DNA of 26,476 nucleotides from positions 1 through 26,476 of the IMG/VR virus record IMGVR_UViG_3300044612_000496, one strand, 5' to 3'. Below are positions 11,530-18,768 of this stretch, one piece after another (the first letter of the stretch is position 1; every line of letters starts with the position of its first letter). The notes under the pieces were generated by a model that was given only the letters and a program-made list of their open reading frames with translations, was not told where the DNA came from and ran no database searches. A program made the position numbers and the translations under genes. Source of the DNA: a virus.

Positions 11530-11772
11530 TTAACATTCCCAAGCCCGCCGACTCCAATAGTTAGCGGAAAGTTTGTTGCTCTTGCCCTTGATGCCGCCAG
11601 AGCGGGCGCAATAGCTCTTCTTGCGCGCAGGCTGGTTCTTCTTGATGGTCATGTTCGCATCCCCAAAGCGAACGATGCGCTCCTGTCCATTCTGGCAGGC
11701 TTTGACTCGAAACTTCTTTCGCTCCCCCGGCGTACGCTGGGGAACGTTGCATTTCATTTTAGACTTATCCAT
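11530..11772 (-). CDS. 80-residue basic protein (MKCNVP family), full-length copy
   Basis: 80 residues from ATG 11772. A start five codons upstream (11787) would lie inside the endonuclease gene, whereas ATG 11772 is preceded by AGGG at a workable distance, placed in the last codons of the endonuclease. The protein reads MDKSKMKCNVP at the start, then RKKFRVKAC, IVRFGDANMTIKK, ARKKSYCARSGG and a C-terminal YWSRRAWEC. The FGD-x-x-M-x-I-K-K...R-K-S-x-x-ARxxG layout is shared by small basic proteins found in many phages, often near lysis or tail genes; their function is not established to my knowledge. The first 23 residues are echoed in the endonuclease immediately upstream. Confidence 0.7.
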   Translation of the reverse strand: MDKSKMKCNVPQRTPGERKKFRVKACQNGQERIVRFGDANMTIKKNQPARKKSYCARSGGIKGKSNKLSANYWSRRAWEC

Positions 11773-11774
11773 TG

Positions 11775-12482
11775 TTATACCCTGCAAAAAGTATGACCAG
11801 CAGCCGTTTTATAAATACCACAAAGCTGTTGATTAATTGAACTGCTCCCGGATTTTCTTCCGAAAAATTTAAGTCCAGCGGCAGTAAGGGATTCAAAAAT
11901 CTCGCCAGTTTCGTTGCACATGATCTTTATGTTCTTACCTCCATTTAGAATCCATTGATTCTTTGGCCTAATCAAAACGCCACTAGGAATGGTTCTTTTA
12001 ATCGTTTGGTGAGAAACATTAAGATCTTTTGCAATAGAACAAAGAGACTCACCGCTTTTATATCTTTCGATAATTTCGTGTCTTTGAGCCCAAACCTTTA
12101 GCATTGGCCTACTAATTGCGCCGCCCAATGAAAGATTATAAGTGTTCGAGCTGAGCACATACTCTTCATTAACTAACTCAGCCTCTAGGGCATAAGCATC
12201 GGATTCGCAGTCAAAGGAAGCTAAAACTTTAACCGCAAAGTTATCGTAACCATATTTAGCCACGGCGGCGCAAAACCCACCACGAACGCGCTTTGCTCTT
12301 TTTTCAGCTGACTGTTGGCTGGTTACGCCACAGCCAATGTAACCATTGTTAATTGATTGCAACTTAGTTACGCCCAAATAGGTCTTTCCATTGACCATAT
12401 TGGTTGTTTCATAGACGACGAACTTCTTGCCGCCCTGCACATCCCTACGCGGGACGTTACACTTCATAGCCTTCTTATTCAT
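11775..12482 (-). CDS. GIY-YIG homing endonuclease with DNA-binding modules
   Basis: 235 residues. Order: residues 1-23 resemble the N-terminus of the next gene (MKCNVPRR ... GGKKFVV). A GIY-YIG nuclease domain spans about 22-120, with a degenerate GIY as VVYETTN, then NGKTYLGV for YIG, R65 region, AKYGYDNFAVKVL, a likely catalytic Glu at 100 and YNLSLGG. A helix-turn-helix follows at about 137-165 (YKSGESLCSIAKDLNVSHQT), and a NUMOD-like module at 185-235 (ETGEIFESLTAAG ... TAAGHTFCRV). This is the classic layout of free-standing homing endonucleases, which cut an allele lacking the insert. Its ATG overlaps the end of the 55-residue gene (ATGAATAA). The gene is visibly more AT-rich than its surroundings, consistent with transfer. 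Confidence 0.85.
   Translation of the reverse strand: MNKKAMKCNVPRRDVQGGKKFVVYETTNMVNGKTYLGVTKLQSINNGYIGCGVTSQQSAEKRAKRVRGGFCAAVAKYGYDNFAVKVLASFDCESDAYALEAELVNEEYVLSSNTYNLSLGGAISRPMLKVWAQRHEIIERYKSGESLCSIAKDLNVSHQTIKRTIPSGVLIRPKNQWILNGGKNIKIMCNETGEIFESLTAAGLKFFGRKSGSSSINQQLCGIYKTAAGHTFCRV
12414..12482 (-). repeat. N-terminal segment duplicated from the downstream 80-aa gene
   Basis: Endonuclease residues 1-23 against residues 1-23 of the 80-residue protein: 13 identities by eye, including the block MKCNVP and KKF-x-V. Codons differ at many third positions (ATGAAGTGTAACGTC against ATGAAATGCAACGTT), so this is not a very recent copy. Confidence 0.65.
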
Positions 12483-12642
12483 CGCTCTTTAGGATCTTGA
12501 TGAGCTTGGTAACGGTGTAGGCAATCGACACCAAAACGAGAATGAAGGCCGCAATCTCGTTCACTTGAGTGAGGGTGATCGTCCCAAATGAACCTCCCAC
12601 GCTTACCGCAACCACTTTAGTGATGTCGTTATCGAAGATCAT
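12475..12642 (-). CDS. 55-residue membrane protein, class II holin-like candidate
   Basis: This gene runs from ATG 12642, overlapping the upstream stop as ATGA, to TAA 12475-12477. The product has a short N-terminal region with weak hydrophobicity (VVAVSVGGSFGTITL), a strong membrane segment (EIAAFILVLVSIAYTV) and a basic then acidic tail (KLIKILKSDE). Size, one strong membrane helix and a charged C-terminus fit small phage holins such as the T7 gp17.5 type, and it follows another holin-like gene. It could instead be an antiholin or a partner of that protein. No endolysin is seen in the window, so the role in lysis remains an inference. Confidence 0.6.
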   Translation of the reverse strand: MIFDNDITKVVAVSVGGSFGTITLTQVNEIAAFILVLVSIAYTVTKLIKILKSDE

Positions 12643-13063: not shown

Positions 13064-13651
13064 CTAGGTGACGTAGTTGACGGATGCGATTCCGCGCCAG
13101 CGACTACCGCTGTCGTCGGTTACAAACACAAAAAGGTGGGTCTTGCCCGTGGACAGGCTGGGGGCGGTGTCATTCGGCCACTTCACGGCAGCAGGCCAAG
13201 TGATGGTGCCGGACGTATTCTCCACCTCTAGGGCAAAGGCATAGGCGCCGCTGGGCACGTTGCTGAACGTGAACGTGCTGTTCGCGTTAATCGTCTTGGT
13301 GAAGTAGTTGCCCAGCGAACAATCGACATCTAGGGACGCAACAACCGTCACCGCACTCTTATACTGTCCCGTAGCCTCAAGGCTCGTAAACTTGCCGGAA
13401 GAGGCCGTAGTGGAGCCAATAGCCAGCGGACTGGCAAACAACTGGGCAGCCGTGGTCTTACGCAGGGCTGTGTCAGCCGAGCTGTGGACAAGGATGGTGT
13501 CAGCCGAGGCTAGGGATGTCTTGGCCGTCTGATCCGTAATGGCACCGGGAAGCAAAACGGCATCATCAACGTGATTGTTGAGGTTCGTTGAGGTTACGAG
13601 ATTCGACGGCGAGGTCGTCCCGTAGGTTGTGCCTTTTTGAATCTGGGCCAT
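13064..13651 (-). CDS. Short tail-fibre-like protein sharing the C-terminal tip of the long fibre
   Basis: 195 residues from ATG 13651. The N-terminus (MAQIQKGTTYGTT ... STNLNNHVDDAVLLPGAI) resembles the start of small phage virion/fibre proteins. The middle has PLAIGSTTASSGKFTSLEAT, a motif also present in the long fibre (PPAIGGTTPAAGKFTTLDAT). Residues about 103-195 are about 70% identical by eye to the last 93 residues of the long fibre (LDVDCS, NYFTKTINANSTFTFSN, SGTITWP, TGKTH, FVTDD, RWRG). The shared end probably trimerises or contacts the receptor. It is followed by the holin-like genes and preceded by the assembly chaperone. It may be an alternative or auxiliary fibre. Confidence 0.75.
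   Translation of the reverse strand: MAQIQKGTTYGTTSPSNLVTSTNLNNHVDDAVLLPGAITDQTAKTSLASADTILVHSSADTALRKTTAAQLFASPLAIGSTTASSGKFTSLEATGQYKSAVTVVASLDVDCSLGNYFTKTINANSTFTFSNVPSGAYAFALEVENTSGTITWPAAVKWPNDTAPSLSTGKTHLFVFVTDDSGSRWRGIASVNYVT
13067..13345 (-). repeat. Shared fibre C-terminal module, copy 2
   Basis: The last 93 codons of the short fibre match the last 93 of the long fibre at 17038-17316. Protein identity is high while third codon positions differ in many places, pointing to an older duplication or to exchange between relatives rather than a recent copy. Confidence 0.8.
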
Positions 13652-13663
13652 GGCCTAAGTATA

Positions 13664-14107
13664 TCAGGGCTTTACGGGCCAGATTACATTATGCGGGAAG
13701 CCAGATTGGCTAGGAATGTCGCGGAGAGCCTGACGGTAGGTGGTCCACGCCACCTTGGAGGGATTGTCCAACGGAGTGTCGTTAAGCTGGGTCCAGTCGC
13801 ACTCGGTGAGCTTGGTGTTGCGCTCGGCGCGAACTTGCTTGGCCTTCTGGGTGTCAATCTCAGCCCGTTCCTCAGCTGTATAGGCCCGCCACAGCTTTAC
13901 CTCAACCACCTCATGCGGGTTGATGACGAACATCGACCCTGAAAACTTCTCATCCACAGCACCCTCATCAATACGAACCGGAAGCCAGCCAAGGGCTTTA
14001 AGCTCATCGTCGCTCAGCCAATTGAGGCCGGAAATGTTGCGCCAGCTAGCGGGCAGGGCGCGAGGCCCATCAACAATGGCGTTATTCTCTACCAGACAGT
14101 AGTTCAT
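13664..14107 (-). CDS. Tail fibre assembly chaperone-like protein
   Basis: 147 residues from ATG 14107. The N-terminal half (MNYCLVENNAIVDGPRALP ... LGWLPV) is the short beta domain often found in such proteins. The C-terminal half has the typical ending with a charged helix (AKQVRAERNTKLTECDWTQL), then AWTTYRQALRDIP and GFPHNVIWPVKP. The 'L-x-x-x-DWTQL-x-D...YRQALRDIP...P...WP' signature matches the phage tail assembly chaperone family. These proteins help fibre subunits fold and trimerise, and usually lie next to the fibre they serve. Here the gene lies just upstream of the short fibre and overlaps the sulfotransferase gene by 26 bases, so the three may be expressed together. Confidence 0.8.
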   Translation of the reverse strand: MNYCLVENNAIVDGPRALPASWRNISGLNWLSDDELKALGWLPVRIDEGAVDEKFSGSMFVINPHEVVEVKLWRAYTAEERAEIDTQKAKQVRAERNTKLTECDWTQLNDTPLDNPSKVAWTTYRQALRDIPSQSGFPHNVIWPVKP

Positions 14108-15866
14108 GTTCGTAGTTTAGGGCTTTGATTTCGTCAAAAGGATGGCTCCAGTCGCCATACTTCTGCTGGCGAAACAGCCGCATAGAGTTGTAGTAGGGCG
14201 TCTTAGGACCGGGTTCCGCATACAGATAATACCCCATTACTGGGATGACAACCCACGTTGGGACGCCCATTGCCGCAGAAAGGTGGCTTACAGACGTACA
14301 GGACGAGATTACGAGGTCGCAGGTGCTGACGGCGGCTTGGGTATCAGACCATGTATCAAGGGGCACCGTTTGCACCCAATCGGGCTTGTATTCCAAGTCG
14401 GCGTCCCGTTGCAGGCTAATAAACTCTACGTTGTCTCGTTTGACGGCATCGAAGAATAGGGGTGCCGGGAATAGCTTGTGGTGCTGGGCCTCAAACTGCT
14501 TGTTGCCCGACCAGCGCAGACCCACCCGCAGTTTCTTGGACTGGCGGACATATGGGATCTTGGATAGGTATGGGTCTCCATAAATCATCTCCTTGGATAG
14601 ATTCATATATGCCGGAGCTGACATACCAGCCATCCAAGCATCGTGGTAGATGCCATATTCCGCACCATGCTGCACCACCGCTGAACAAAGATTGGCGTCG
14701 TGGACAAACTTCACCAACTCGCCTGAGCAAGAAACAACAATGTCGGCTGTACCGGTTTGGCGGACATGGCGAATGTAGCCTAGCTGCTGGATCTGGTCGC
14801 CTAACCCTCCTTCAAGGTACATGAGCAGCGTAGCGCAGGGCTTGCCATCCCACTCTGGCTGGGGCGTGTTGGGCTTGCTGTTGCCAAATACTCCTACGTT
14901 GCGTCCACGCCGAAGCAGTTGATGGCCGAGGCGGAAGTTGCCGTCGTGTAGCTCGTACCAGCCACGGTTGTAGGCTGCGCGGTCATCGTTGGGACGTTCA
15001 ATAGCCAGCTTGTCAGCAATGCGTCGTCCCTCTTCAAAGTTGCCCATCGTCGACGCAGCAAGCTGAAGATCGAGGTCGTCTACCTCTGGCTTGGTGCGCG
15101 GCTCTGGCAACCAAAACTCGGGCTGACAGAACTGAGTGTAGTGGTGCTTGAGCACATCCTTGGGCGACTCGTTGTGCTGTCGCTCTAGCTTGGGCTTAAT
15201 GTCATGCATCCCCTTGCATCGATGCACCCCTTCATCGTCTTCCTTAACTGTTGATCCATCAATGTTATTGAAGTCGTACTCAAACGCAGGAAGTTCAAGA
15301 AACTGATGAATCCTATCTAGCTCGCGCTTGGGGTTTGCAAGTAGGTCTTCGTATTCGACAAACAACAAACAACTTGGATCATGAGTATGCCCAGCCATAA
15401 GCGTCTGGTAGGACACCTTTAGATGCGCTACCAAGCTATCTTTTGCCATGAACTCATCCAAGTTATCTGGCTTGGCTACGCGGACAAATGAAGCCATGCA
15501 GTCTGGGACACTACGAACGGTAGCAATGATACGAGGCTTTCGGCCTAATACCATTTCCATTGAAGACATGACCATTGGAATCGGCCATGCGCGACTCTTA
15601 TCAATCACAATCGGCTTATCTGTCTCGTAAAAGCCATTAATCAACGATTGCATAGAAGCAATAAGTTGCTTCCTACTGGGATCGCTGTCCTTCAAAAACT
15701 GCTCCTTGCCCCACGTTAAAGCCAAACCGTTCAAAGCAAAAACAAGCCCAGAGGTCGTTGTGACGTGGGCTTGCGGATTCTGGTTGAGGATTGCCGCTAA
15801 AAGCGTTGACCCCGAACGGGGAAGACCAGAAAGAAAGAATAGCTGTTTTTGAAGTGTCTTAGTCAC
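14082..15866 (-). CDS. Sulfotransferase fused to a TPR-like linker and glycosyltransferase-like domain
   Basis: 594 residues from GTG 15866, chosen because AAGGG (15871-15875) precedes it; a GTG at 15887 would add seven residues and has no such site. Residues 12-23 (LSGLPRSGSTLL) are the PAPS 5'-phosphosulfate loop. R118 and S126 in TVRSVPDCMASFVR fit the 3'-phosphate site of sulfotransferases. From about 265 to 325 a helical linker recalls TPR repeats (AASTMGNFEEGRRIADKLA, DDRAAYNRGWYELHDGNF). The C-terminal part carries GLRWSGN (about 449-455), DLVISSCTSVSHLSAAMGVP (517-536) and SMRLFRQ...GDW, the signature of GT-B type glycosyltransferases of the heptosyltransferase/O-GlcNAc-transferase-like group. 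It would move sulfate and sugar groups to a glycan, probably a host surface polymer or a phage fibre; the substrate is unknown. Confidence 0.8.
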   Translation of the reverse strand: MTKTLQKQLFFLSGLPRSGSTLLAAILNQNPQAHVTTTSGLVFALNGLALTWGKEQFLKDSDPSRKQLIASMQSLINGFYETDKPIVIDKSRAWPIPMVMSSMEMVLGRKPRIIATVRSVPDCMASFVRVAKPDNLDEFMAKDSLVAHLKVSYQTLMAGHTHDPSCLLFVEYEDLLANPKRELDRIHQFLELPAFEYDFNNIDGSTVKEDDEGVHRCKGMHDIKPKLERQHNESPKDVLKHHYTQFCQPEFWLPEPRTKPEVDDLDLQLAASTMGNFEEGRRIADKLAIERPNDDRAAYNRGWYELHDGNFRLGHQLLRRGRNVGVFGNSKPNTPQPEWDGKPCATLLMYLEGGLGDQIQQLGYIRHVRQTGTADIVVSCSGELVKFVHDANLCSAVVQHGAEYGIYHDAWMAGMSAPAYMNLSKEMIYGDPYLSKIPYVRQSKKLRVGLRWSGNKQFEAQHHKLFPAPLFFDAVKRDNVEFISLQRDADLEYKPDWVQTVPLDTWSDTQAAVSTCDLVISSCTSVSHLSAAMGVPTWVVIPVMGYYLYAEPGPKTPYYNSMRLFRQQKYGDWSHPFDEIKALNYEHELLSGRE

Positions 15867-15907
15867 AAGACCCTTATGACTTAACACTTAAAAAAGTAAA
15901 GCCGTTG

Positions 15908-17029
15908 TTATGGATTTCTAATGCCGTATTGAGCAAATCGACCAGCACTTATAGATTGCCATTTGTTTATAGATCCAATCTGCTGTGGAGACGATCTATC
16001 AGTAGTGGTTCCGCTACCTAATTGACCATAATAATTATAGCCCCATGACCAAATTGTTCCATCGGTCTTTAATCCAATAGAAGAAAGACCATCGCACTCT
16101 ACTACGGACCAATTTGAAAGTGCTCCGATTTGAGTGGGAACGGAATATATATCTATGTCTCCAAGACCAAGTCCACCATAGGTATTCAGGCCCCATGCCC
16201 ATGCTGTATTATTTGTTCTAACGCCAATAACGGCAGAACCGCCAGTTTTATCTTGAGATACCGATCTCCAATTGGTTGCTGTTCCAATTTGAACTGGTGA
16301 GAGTCTTTGATACACAGTTCCGTCTCCAAGCCCGTAGCCGTCATTTCTTCCCCAAGCCCAAAGAGTTCCGTCTGTCTTAACAGCGTGGGTCCATGAAGCA
16401 CCAGCAAAAACTTTTGACCAATTTGTTAATGACCCAACTTGGACTGGAGATGAACGACTGTCTGTGTTTCCCCTTCCAAGTCGTCCATTTTCTCCCCATC
16501 CCCAAGACCAAAGGGTTCCATCAGTTTTAACAGCAACAGAAAAGTTGCCTGTAGCAGCACAAGCATTTGACCAATTCGTTAATGATCCAATTTGAATTGG
16601 GGATGATTTATCTGTAGTGGTTCCATCTCCAAGTTGACCATTGCTATTACTGCCCCAAGCCCAAATGGTTCCGTCTGTTTTAATTGCAACACTATGACGA
16701 TATCCGGCAGATGCAGAAAGCCAATTAGTTAATGATCCAATTTGTACCGGAGAACTTCTTTCAGTTGTAGTTCCATCTCCAAGTTGACCAAATGCATTTC
16801 TTCCCCAAGCCCAAAGGGTTCCATCTGTCTTAACAGCAAGACAGTAATTTTGTCCACCCCTAATTGTTGACCAATCTTTTAGTGCCCCGACTTGTCTGGG
16901 AGATGAATAGTATGTAAGATTGTTTTGTCCCAACTGTCCATTTCCATTATATCCCCAAGACCAAAGTTGATATTCTGGTGCGCCTTCTCCGCCAGCACCC
17001 ATTGCAAGTCTAAGTACGTTCGGGTCCAT
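15908..17029 (-). CDS. RCC1-type seven-bladed beta-propeller, likely tail-associated binding protein
   Basis: 373 residues from ATG 17029. Seven copies of a roughly 50-residue unit are seen, marked by W-[SA]-WG at residues 23, 73, 123, 174, 224, 277 and 327, each followed by G-x-LG and G[DT]-type ends and by SSPVQIG and NW. Seven units give a closed RCC1-type propeller. There is no catalytic residue pattern; phage RCC1 proteins are usually thought to be virion-displayed binding proteins. It lies directly after the long fibre and before the sulfotransferase-glycosyltransferase gene, so a role in host recognition or glycan binding is likely. The region is visibly more AT-rich than the fibre genes on either side, suggesting separate acquisition. 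The start has an AT-rich leader (TAATTTTTATG), no Shine-Dalgarno motif. Confidence 0.85.
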   Translation of the reverse strand: MDPNVLRLAMGAGGEGAPEYQLWSWGYNGNGQLGQNNLTYYSSPRQVGALKDWSTIRGGQNYCLAVKTDGTLWAWGRNAFGQLGDGTTTERSSPVQIGSLTNWLSASAGYRHSVAIKTDGTIWAWGSNSNGQLGDGTTTDKSSPIQIGSLTNWSNACAATGNFSVAVKTDGTLWSWGWGENGRLGRGNTDSRSSPVQVGSLTNWSKVFAGASWTHAVKTDGTLWAWGRNDGYGLGDGTVYQRLSPVQIGTATNWRSVSQDKTGGSAVIGVRTNNTAWAWGLNTYGGLGLGDIDIYSVPTQIGALSNWSVVECDGLSSIGLKTDGTIWSWGYNYYGQLGSGTTTDRSSPQQIGSINKWQSISAGRFAQYGIRNP

Positions 17030-17034
17030 AAAAA

Positions 17035-18768
17035 TTAGTTAACGTAGTCTACGAGGGATGCGCCGCGCCAACGGGTGCCGCCATCATCCGTGACAAAGAT
17101 AAAGATATGCGTTTTGCCAGTAGTCAAGGTGGGAGCCGTATCCTTCGGCCATTTAACCGAGGTCGGCCAAGTGATAGTTCCCGACGTGTGGGTTAGCTCA
17201 AGGGCAAAGGCAAAGGCTCGGGTTGCCGGAGGATTACTAAACGTAAATGTCGAGTTGGCATTGATCGTCTTCGTGAAATAATTGGCCGTCGAGCAGTCAA
17301 CGTCCAAGGCTCCCATCGCCGTAATGTTGGAGGCGTAGTTGCCGTCTAGGTCCAAACGGGCAAGGGGCGTGCTTTGATTGATGCCAATGCGGTCTACCGA
17401 GGCATCGCTGAAGAACAAGTGGGTCTTGCTATCACCTTCAATGCGGAAGTCCTTGTCTGCCCCAGCTTCGTTAAACGTGAAGGTGCCGCCGTCAAAGCCA
17501 ACATTGCCCGTAGCGTCAAGTGTCGTAAACTTACCCGCTGCCGGAGTCGTTCCACCAATAGCAGGCGGGGAAGCTAGGTAGTCCGAAAAACCAGTTCCGC
17601 TTACGGTGCTCGATGCGCTCAGGGTAGTAAACGCGCCCGTAGAGGCACTAGACGCTCCAATGGTGGTGCCGTTGATAGACCCACCAGAAATTGTGACATT
17701 GTTGGCGTCTTGGCTAGAGATGGTGCCAAGAGTCGGAAGACCCGTCAGGTCTGAGTATTTGCCGCTAGTGGCGACAGTAGCAAGAGTCGGCGTGCCGCTG
17801 AGGTCGGCATACGCCCCCGTAGTGGCAACAGTAGCTAGTCCGCTGACGTTAGCCGCCGGAACTGTTCCCGTGCTAATCGTGCCAAGGGTGGTGATGTTTG
17901 TGCTGCCAGCCCAAGTGCTAAGAGCCGTGTTCTCTACGTTGCTAAGACCGATAGCGGTTTTCGCGGAACTGGCAGAGTAGTTCTCCCAACGCTTGTCTCC
18001 ACCGTCATAGACAAGGAAGTCGTTGTTGGTCGGGGACGTAAGCTGTACGTTCTGGTCCGTTCCACCAAGCTGCGAGCCGGGGAAGATCTTGACGTAAATC
18101 GAGCCAGAGCTACCGGAACCAGCGTTAGTAACGATACCAATTTCAGACTTAATATTGGGCGCAGCGGGCTTGGTAGCCGTCATTGCTCCACCGCCAGCCG
18201 GATCGTACCAAAGCGTATCGTTGTCTACGTACGCCGACGTGTTTAAGTTGGGGACCAGCCCCATTGCAATAACTCGACCAAAGCCGTTAAGGGCAATATT
18301 CTCAAAAGCTACACCAACAAAAGCATTGCCATCAGTAATGCCAGTAGTTGAGGGACCAAACGTAATTACACCAGAAGCCCCAACAACGCCCGTCTTCATT
18401 ATCAACTGACCCTTGGTGATTGCGGCAGACGCCTTGCCGTACACCATAATCTGTTCGTTAAGCTGGCTGGTGAAACCACCGCTATCGACATGAACATTCA
18501 GCGTTCCGGTGGAACCCCACCAAAGTTTGCCTTCCGTTGGAGTGACGGTAGCCGCTGTATCAAACTGGATAAAATCAGGGGACGACAGTCCTCCCGTGAT
18601 GCTAGCCATGGACGTGATGTCCGTGTTAGCACCAGACGCTGCCGCACCTAGATTGGTACGGGCATCAGTAGCATTAGTGGCTCCAGTTCCGCCCTGAGAA
18701 ACGGGAACTGTGCCGCTAATTGACGTGGACACCGGAGTGTCCAGCAACAGCGTCTTGAAGATGTCCAT
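17035..18768 (-). CDS. Long tail fibre protein
   Basis: 577 residues from ATG 18768, two bases after the upstream stop. The N-terminus has SGTVPVSQGGTGATNATDAR, a hallmark of phage fibres. The shaft carries repeats such as TTGAYADLSGTPTL / TSGKYSDLTGLPTL, NVTISGGSINGTTIG and STGAFTTLSAS, plus the motif IGLSNVENTALSTW. Near the end, DRIGINQSTPLARLDLDG resembles repeats found before fibre C-terminal domains. The last 93 residues form a beta-rich tip (NYFTKTINANSTFTFSN, SGTITWP, RWRGAS), shared with the short fibre at 13064-13651. It would trimerise and bind the host receptor. It is followed six bases later by the RCC1 propeller gene. Confidence 0.85.
   Translation of the reverse strand: MDIFKTLLLDTPVSTSISGTVPVSQGGTGATNATDARTNLGAAASGANTDITSMASITGGLSSPDFIQFDTAATVTPTEGKLWWGSTGTLNVHVDSGGFTSQLNEQIMVYGKASAAITKGQLIMKTGVVGASGVITFGPSTTGITDGNAFVGVAFENIALNGFGRVIAMGLVPNLNTSAYVDNDTLWYDPAGGGAMTATKPAAPNIKSEIGIVTNAGSGSSGSIYVKIFPGSQLGGTDQNVQLTSPTNNDFLVYDGGDKRWENYSASSAKTAIGLSNVENTALSTWAGSTNITTLGTISTGTVPAANVSGLATVATTGAYADLSGTPTLATVATSGKYSDLTGLPTLGTISSQDANNVTISGGSINGTTIGASSASTGAFTTLSASSTVSGTGFSDYLASPPAIGGTTPAAGKFTTLDATGNVGFDGGTFTFNEAGADKDFRIEGDSKTHLFFSDASVDRIGINQSTPLARLDLDGNYASNITAMGALDVDCSTANYFTKTINANSTFTFSNPPATRAFAFALELTHTSGTITWPTSVKWPKDTAPTLTTGKTHIFIFVTDDGGTRWRGASLVDYVN
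17038..17316 (-). repeat. Shared fibre C-terminal module, copy 1
   Basis: The last 93 codons of the long fibre are the counterpart of 13067-13345. The two copies are separated by about 3.7 kb holding the propeller, the sulfotransferase-glycosyltransferase fusion, the chaperone and the N-terminal half of the short fibre. Confidence 0.8.

Follow-up and report, generated by a model that had tools for sequence, protein, structure and literature searches.

A probable mobile GIY-YIG homing endonuclease cassette carrying a replacement 5′ end for its target gene in a tailed phage

How does a homing endonuclease come to begin with residues so like those of the gene that follows it? The window analysed here, the whole 26,476 bases of an IMG/VR record derived from a tailed phage, raises this question on its minus strand, where a 55-residue gene, a GIY-YIG endonuclease ORF, a small gene, two small ORFs and the gene for a 728-residue virion protein stand in that order. 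The preliminary description had proposed that the endonuclease entered the small gene just after codon 23 and took over its start, an overall interpretation that is supported by our analysis and was largely right. We consider it very probable that the locus holds a mobile GIY-YIG homing endonuclease cassette with a replacement 5′ end for its target gene, laid out as follows.

12475–12642, minus strand: upstream gene, membrane/holin-like, 55 residues; its stop overlaps the ATG now serving the endonuclease (ATGAATAA), as in empty alleles
11775–12482, minus strand: GIY-YIG homing endonuclease ORF, 235 residues; residues 1–23 host-derived, the catalytic domain starting at about residue 20, and a helix-turn-helix around residues 133–163
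12414–12482, minus strand: codons 1–23 of the small gene, host-derived, which have become the N-terminal part of the endonuclease ORF; 67 of 69 nucleotides identical to empty allele L007
11707–12413, minus strand: inserted cassette, 707 nucleotides (about 710 with an ambiguous GTC), from blastn breakpoints against L007, L016, L003 and L092; it consists of the endonuclease body with its stop codon, a spacer of two nucleotides and the 22 replacement codons
11707–11772, minus strand: replacement 5′ end (MDKSKMKCNVPQRTPGERKKFR); 61 of 66 positions shared with its counterpart in L002, no more than 46 of 69 with any endonuclease-less allele
11530–11706, minus strand: rest of the small gene, from the host allele (codons 23–80 with the stop); 96% identity with empty alleles L093–L095
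11530–11772, minus strand: restored chimeric small gene, 80 residues, DUF5754/phrog_7595-like by profile resemblance

The shared beginning of two neighbouring proteins

Both ORFs are as first described, and the resemblance between their N-termini is real: 13 of 23 residues are identical, with a local alignment score of 60 that none of 20,000 shuffles reached (maximum 54), so that chance similarity is ruled out. At the nucleotide level, 39 of the first 69 positions match and 30 differ, after which the alignment falls to chance (8 of 30). The GIY-YIG domain had been thought to begin where the resemblance ends; instead, its first strand starts within the shared stretch, since free-standing relatives of the endonuclease begin MKFIVYETTN, and residues 20–23 (KFVV) are native to the endonuclease and the small-gene protein alike. 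What precedes them is not native to the endonuclease family, as judged from these relatives and from the phage-database matches listed, which start at about residue 9–23. The MNKKAMKC-type start was absent from the other GIY-YIG relatives examined, and in IMG/VR it occurred only in small-gene alleles or the window endonuclease. SegC of T4, considered as a parallel, matches from residue 9 and has an N-terminus of its own (MPMQDHKYFYLYSITN) without a copy of the small gene.

With its conserved catalytic domain, the protein is a GIY-YIG homing endonuclease. It matches phrog_314 (‘homing endonuclease’) with an E-value of 3.6e-21 and Pfam GIY-YIG at 7.5e-4, just short of the curated cut-off; across 18 relatives, Y24, N31-G32-K33, Y35, G37 and Y115-N116 are invariant and E100 nearly so. 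A sequence search of solved structures gave no match, and the closest PDB entry to the predicted model was the catalytic domain of I-TevI (probability 0.99, with a weak Foldseek E-value of 0.059). In this model strand 1 spans residues 21–28, residues 1–17 mostly have pLDDT below 50, and the C-terminal half is of poor quality. The G+C content of the endonuclease body is 0.41 versus 0.53. The small gene matches phrog_7595 (E 1.3e-13) and more weakly resembles DUF5754, and its relatives are present in Roseobacter and Pelagibacter phages.

Elsewhere in the window, an RCC1-like repeat protein of 373 residues (15908–17029, with WAWG..GQLGDGTT repeated) lies among tail-fibre genes. A 601-residue protein (14082–15887) combines a sulfotransferase-like start (FLSGLPRSGSTLL) with a TPR/glycosyltransferase-like second half, and tail-fibre-like proteins at 13064–13651 and 17035–18768 have a common C-terminal domain (FTKTINANSTFTFSN...); the first of these two has matches at more than one place in L108, the same contig as L082.

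Empty alleles, the insertion site and the replacement end

IMG/VR scans yielded 36 distinct contigs in which the small gene and its upstream neighbour both occur; since they were retrieved by similarity, and several may be one phage resampled, counts among them are not population frequencies. In 31 the allele is empty, a single uninterrupted small gene (beginning MNKKAMKCNVPRRDVQGGKKFVVKACQNG in many) following the upstream gene at nearly constant spacing. Three contigs (the window, L082 and L002) carry the window-type endonuclease, and two (L096 and L097) a different endonuclease at the gene's 3′ end. In all three window-type contigs the insertion point falls exactly at codon 22/23, where the empty alleles read MNKKAMKCNVPRRDVQGGKKFVV and run straight on into KACQNG....

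Comparison of phages with and without the endonuclease placed it directly after codon 23 and on the small gene's own start, as had been predicted. Beyond the 69 nucleotides that it owes to the left flank, the endonuclease ORF is unrelated to L007, while the downstream gene is diverged from L007 over codons 1–22 and nearly identical thereafter. The ORF thus interrupts a coding gene at one site, and the insert brings its own diverged version of the displaced terminus, which reads in frame into what is left of the gene. The idea that a full copy remains downstream, or was regained, holds for the original gene from codon 23 onwards, and fails for codons 1–22, which are a new, diverged end supplied by the insert. 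The proposed use of host translation signals was borne out at the sequence level, with the translation start region of the endonuclease identical to that of the empty allele over 42 nucleotides. As read from these alleles, then, the endonuclease owes to the left flank its start codon, the ribosome-binding region and its first 23 codons, and on the right the replacement 5′ end runs on into the flank, re-forming a complete target gene. Taken together, the comparisons show that the cassette entered at one codon, captured the start and replaced the displaced end, and that near-identical phages are polymorphic for it. Such presence or absence between near-identical backbones is consistent with cutting and copying into an empty allele.

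Short AAGAAGTT repeats flank the cassette and, because they could permit precise loss and so generate some empty alleles, the polymorphism does not fully settle whether gain or loss occurred; the wide spread of empty alleles, outgroups included, favours gain. Two empty alleles on backbones close to that of the window (L092:4001–4240 and L098:4001–4240) differ directly behind the insertion site, with LGCADGKKKLI in place of KACQNGQERIV at codons 24–34, and are possibly resistant.

L002 shows the cassette on a distinct backbone, its upstream gene being 76% identical to that of the window. Its left flank is of the L006/L015–L017 type (97%) and its right flank of the L003/L004 type (96–97%), and the window's flanks match alleles of the L007/L093 type. 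The breakpoints of L002 against L016 are clean (93.8% identity over 2013 bp up to nucleotide 68 of the gene, and 97.5% over 3139 bp from nucleotide 55). The replacement ends of the window and L002 match no other allele, the nearest endonuclease-less sequence being L102, from Roseobacter phage CRP-738 (46 of 69). A degenerate IMG/VR scan for MKCNVPQRTP, seeking the donor of this end, hit endonuclease-bearing contigs only. Codons 1–22 of the downstream gene come from a diverged homologue known in IMG/VR only beside the window-type endonuclease.

Comparing the window with L002 gave a dN of 0.115 and a dS of 1.38 for the endonuclease body, and six silent changes with no amino-acid change for the replacement end, which suggests purifying selection on both. 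Since the endonuclease bodies have diverged much as the host backbones have (dS 1.38 versus 1.30), the comparison does not demonstrate recent transfer between the two lineages. RNA folding at the right end of the cassette was no better than in shuffled sequences (z −0.31).

Repeated gene ends in other endonuclease loci

The small gene has been struck at its other end too. Near its 3′ end, L096, L097 and L181 carry another GIY-YIG gene, of 29% identity, the small gene ending in a diverged TTCTGGTCTAGACGCGCTTGGGGATGC and a native leftover, TTGGAGTCGGCGGGCTTGGGACTGTTAACC, standing after the endonuclease stop. This layout is a C-terminal mirror of the window insertion, and an independent strike on the same gene. 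The 30-nucleotide diverged 3′ end of the L096 cassette recurs, identical and without the endonuclease, at about 4211–4240 in L032 and L036, which may represent a donor, a resistant allele or a cured insertion. In L098 (4190–4270) the small gene ends in GATTGCAAATAATTAATGCTATGAAGG, where the usual end is GACTGTTAACCATGAAGG, and this may be the scar of a lost 3′-end cassette. In other phages, L168 and L177 have GIY-YIG genes directly behind distant homologues of the small gene, and endonucleases may target this gene family repeatedly.

We screened for end duplications by comparing the 300 nucleotides before the GIY-YIG motif with about 260 nucleotides past the stop codon at 103 non-identical endonuclease loci, which form 76 clusters at 60% identity. 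In a first screen the 99th percentile of random pairs was 37; in the clustered screen 12 of 5,906 between-cluster pairs reached 45, the eight pairs listed all belonging to the small-gene target family. Repeated gene ends were found in nine of the 76 clusters: the window family; L096; a thioesterase gene (L121/L322); another thioesterase-like gene (L127); L140, whose copy has 16 identical residues and seven identical codons; L204 (HAD-like); L274 (PhoH-like, of the C-terminal type); L331 (RecU-like); and L324 (exonuclease-like, with a broken frame), the gene names being readings of the translations. L204 (nine of ten residues) and L324 are the weakest candidates. Outside the small-gene family, the endonucleases of these clusters lie between a truncated and a complete version of one gene end, in unrelated genes. 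L193 was dropped, since on our reading its translations looked more like repeated tRNA-like sequence than like the copy of a gene end.

For the thioesterase L121, the empty alleles L314 and L315, from IMG/VR, match the truncated upstream fragment at 66 of 66 positions of the 5′ core and the copy at 53 of 66, and match the copy at 297 of 300 positions of the remainder. This locus repeats the architecture of the window, as confirmed by its empty alleles. Phage-collection nucleotide searches found no close empty allele for L121, L127 or L140, the matches lying mostly inside endonuclease genes, and clusters outside the small-gene family and L121 are candidates without an empty allele. The endonucleases of L121, L127 and L140 each start from an ATG of their own; among the loci inspected, capture of the start codon is particular to the window family.

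Competing origins, proposed mechanism and known systems

Could the repeated end have arisen in another way? The best-placed alternative is ordinary intronless homing beside a diverged small gene, with the 5′ end carried along as a passive co-conversion flank, free of selection for rescue or immunity, and the left join made through the microhomology AAG-TTC-GTC-GTC. That join does lie in shared sequence, KFVV being native both to the endonuclease family (MKFIVYETTN) and to the target (KKFVV), and such a history would account for how the cassette could first arise; as an origin story it partly overlaps our preferred explanation. As a full account it leaves unexplained both the same layout in other genes and the retention of the replacement end's protein sequence, and we regard it as possible though doubtful.

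Had the small gene been duplicated in tandem long ago, and had an endonuclease later displaced the 3′ part of the first copy, the gene order would be identical and the two 5′ ends homologous, as they are. This history is very unlikely, given that no locus among the 36 contigs has two small genes without an endonuclease, that both breakpoints fall at one codon with everything outside matching one single-copy empty allele, and that an old duplicate should show divergence over its full length. We give still less credence to the idea that the N-terminal copy was taken from the target as a working module for binding DNA or protein, in the manner reported for chimeric nucleases such as Odn: the copy comprises only 23 residues, mostly of low confidence in the model, tracks the local empty allele in each lineage and is absent from the related endonucleases examined. 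Phage nucleases sharing a domain with their target are nevertheless described as chimeric (PMC8263062). Next to no likelihood attaches to a remnant of a group I or group II intron or an intein, frequent as introns are as homes of GIY-YIG endonucleases (PMC2988022), since the window has no Rfam match that would point to group I intron RNA structure around the ORF, no splice elements were seen around an ORF that starts in the target's frame, a separate start codon serves the restored gene behind the insert, and exons would not be duplicated.

Returning to the rescue-bearing cassette, we infer its cutting, homing and immunity from the allele comparisons. The endonuclease would bind and cut the uninterrupted gene at about codons 15–30 in a co-infecting phage, and repair of the break from the cassette-bearing genome would copy the cassette across. 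The diverged 5′ end would preserve the target protein, and its different nucleotides should protect the re-formed gene from re-cutting; the cutting site is likely masked in the cassette-bearing gene. Translation of the upstream gene would enter the captured start, so that the endonuclease would need neither its own promoter nor its own start, and the 3′ end of its ORF bears a putative ribosome-binding AGGG ahead of the restored gene's ATG.

The closest known kind are the gene-end-replacing mobile ORFs of fungal mitochondria, found in atp6 of Allomyces macrogynus and in atp6, atp9, cox2 and nad3 of Glomus sp., where the two carboxy-terminal ends of atp6 are 63.5% identical at the DNA level (PMC3630166). 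In both settings an endonuclease ORF lies in a host gene together with a diverged terminus copy that restores it, and the native terminus is stranded on the far side. The fungal elements replace carboxy-terminal ends and are mostly LAGLIDADG, that of atp9 being GIY-YIG (PMC3630166), whereas the window cassette, of GIY-YIG type and in a tailed phage, replaces an amino-terminal end and turns the displaced native end into the endonuclease's start. It is on these grounds a variant that works like the fungal mobile ORFs, not a member; the carboxy-terminal form does occur in the phage loci L096/L097 and probably in L274.

Sethuraman et al. in 2009 reportedly described LAGLIDADG genes inside rps3 of Ophiostoma, said to be fused in frame to the host gene with the displaced segment duplicated and the gene restored; those are reportedly mitochondrial, lie within a group I intron and belong to another enzyme family. 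The free-standing seg endonucleases of T4 and its relatives are likewise GIY-YIG, often promoter-less and expressed from host signals, some overlapping the upstream ORF, but the seg genes of T4 sit between genes and cut at a distance, and the available part of the source (PMC2988022) reports no replacement of a target-gene end. Engineered home-and-rescue and Cleave-and-Rescue drives (PMC7968924, PMC7951863) also pair a nuclease with a recoded target copy that keeps function and escapes cutting; the window cassette differs in being natural and viral and in replacing only the interrupted end, with putative immunity. In the open-access literature that we searched, subscription papers lying outside it, we found no report of an end-replacing cassette in phages, and we claim no priority.

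New in this variant are its phage setting, the usual use of the 5′ end and, here, start-codon capture. We lean, with some reserve, towards the broader view that phage GIY-YIG endonucleases are commonly natural ‘cleave-and-rescue’ cassettes, entering genes near either end with a synonymously diverged replacement end, and that the window holds a form capturing the displaced native start for nuclease expression. The usual view is that a homing endonuclease with neither intron nor intein stays between genes, because insertion within one would break it. The cassettes described here show another solution in phages, that of carrying a replacement for the severed piece; if the broader view is true, they could invade needed genes without introns or inteins. 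They resemble the rescue idea of synthetic gene drives, provide alleles from nature on which to test it (empty, occupied and perhaps resistant), and account for puzzling truncated or duplicated gene ends and odd endonuclease N-termini in phage genomes.
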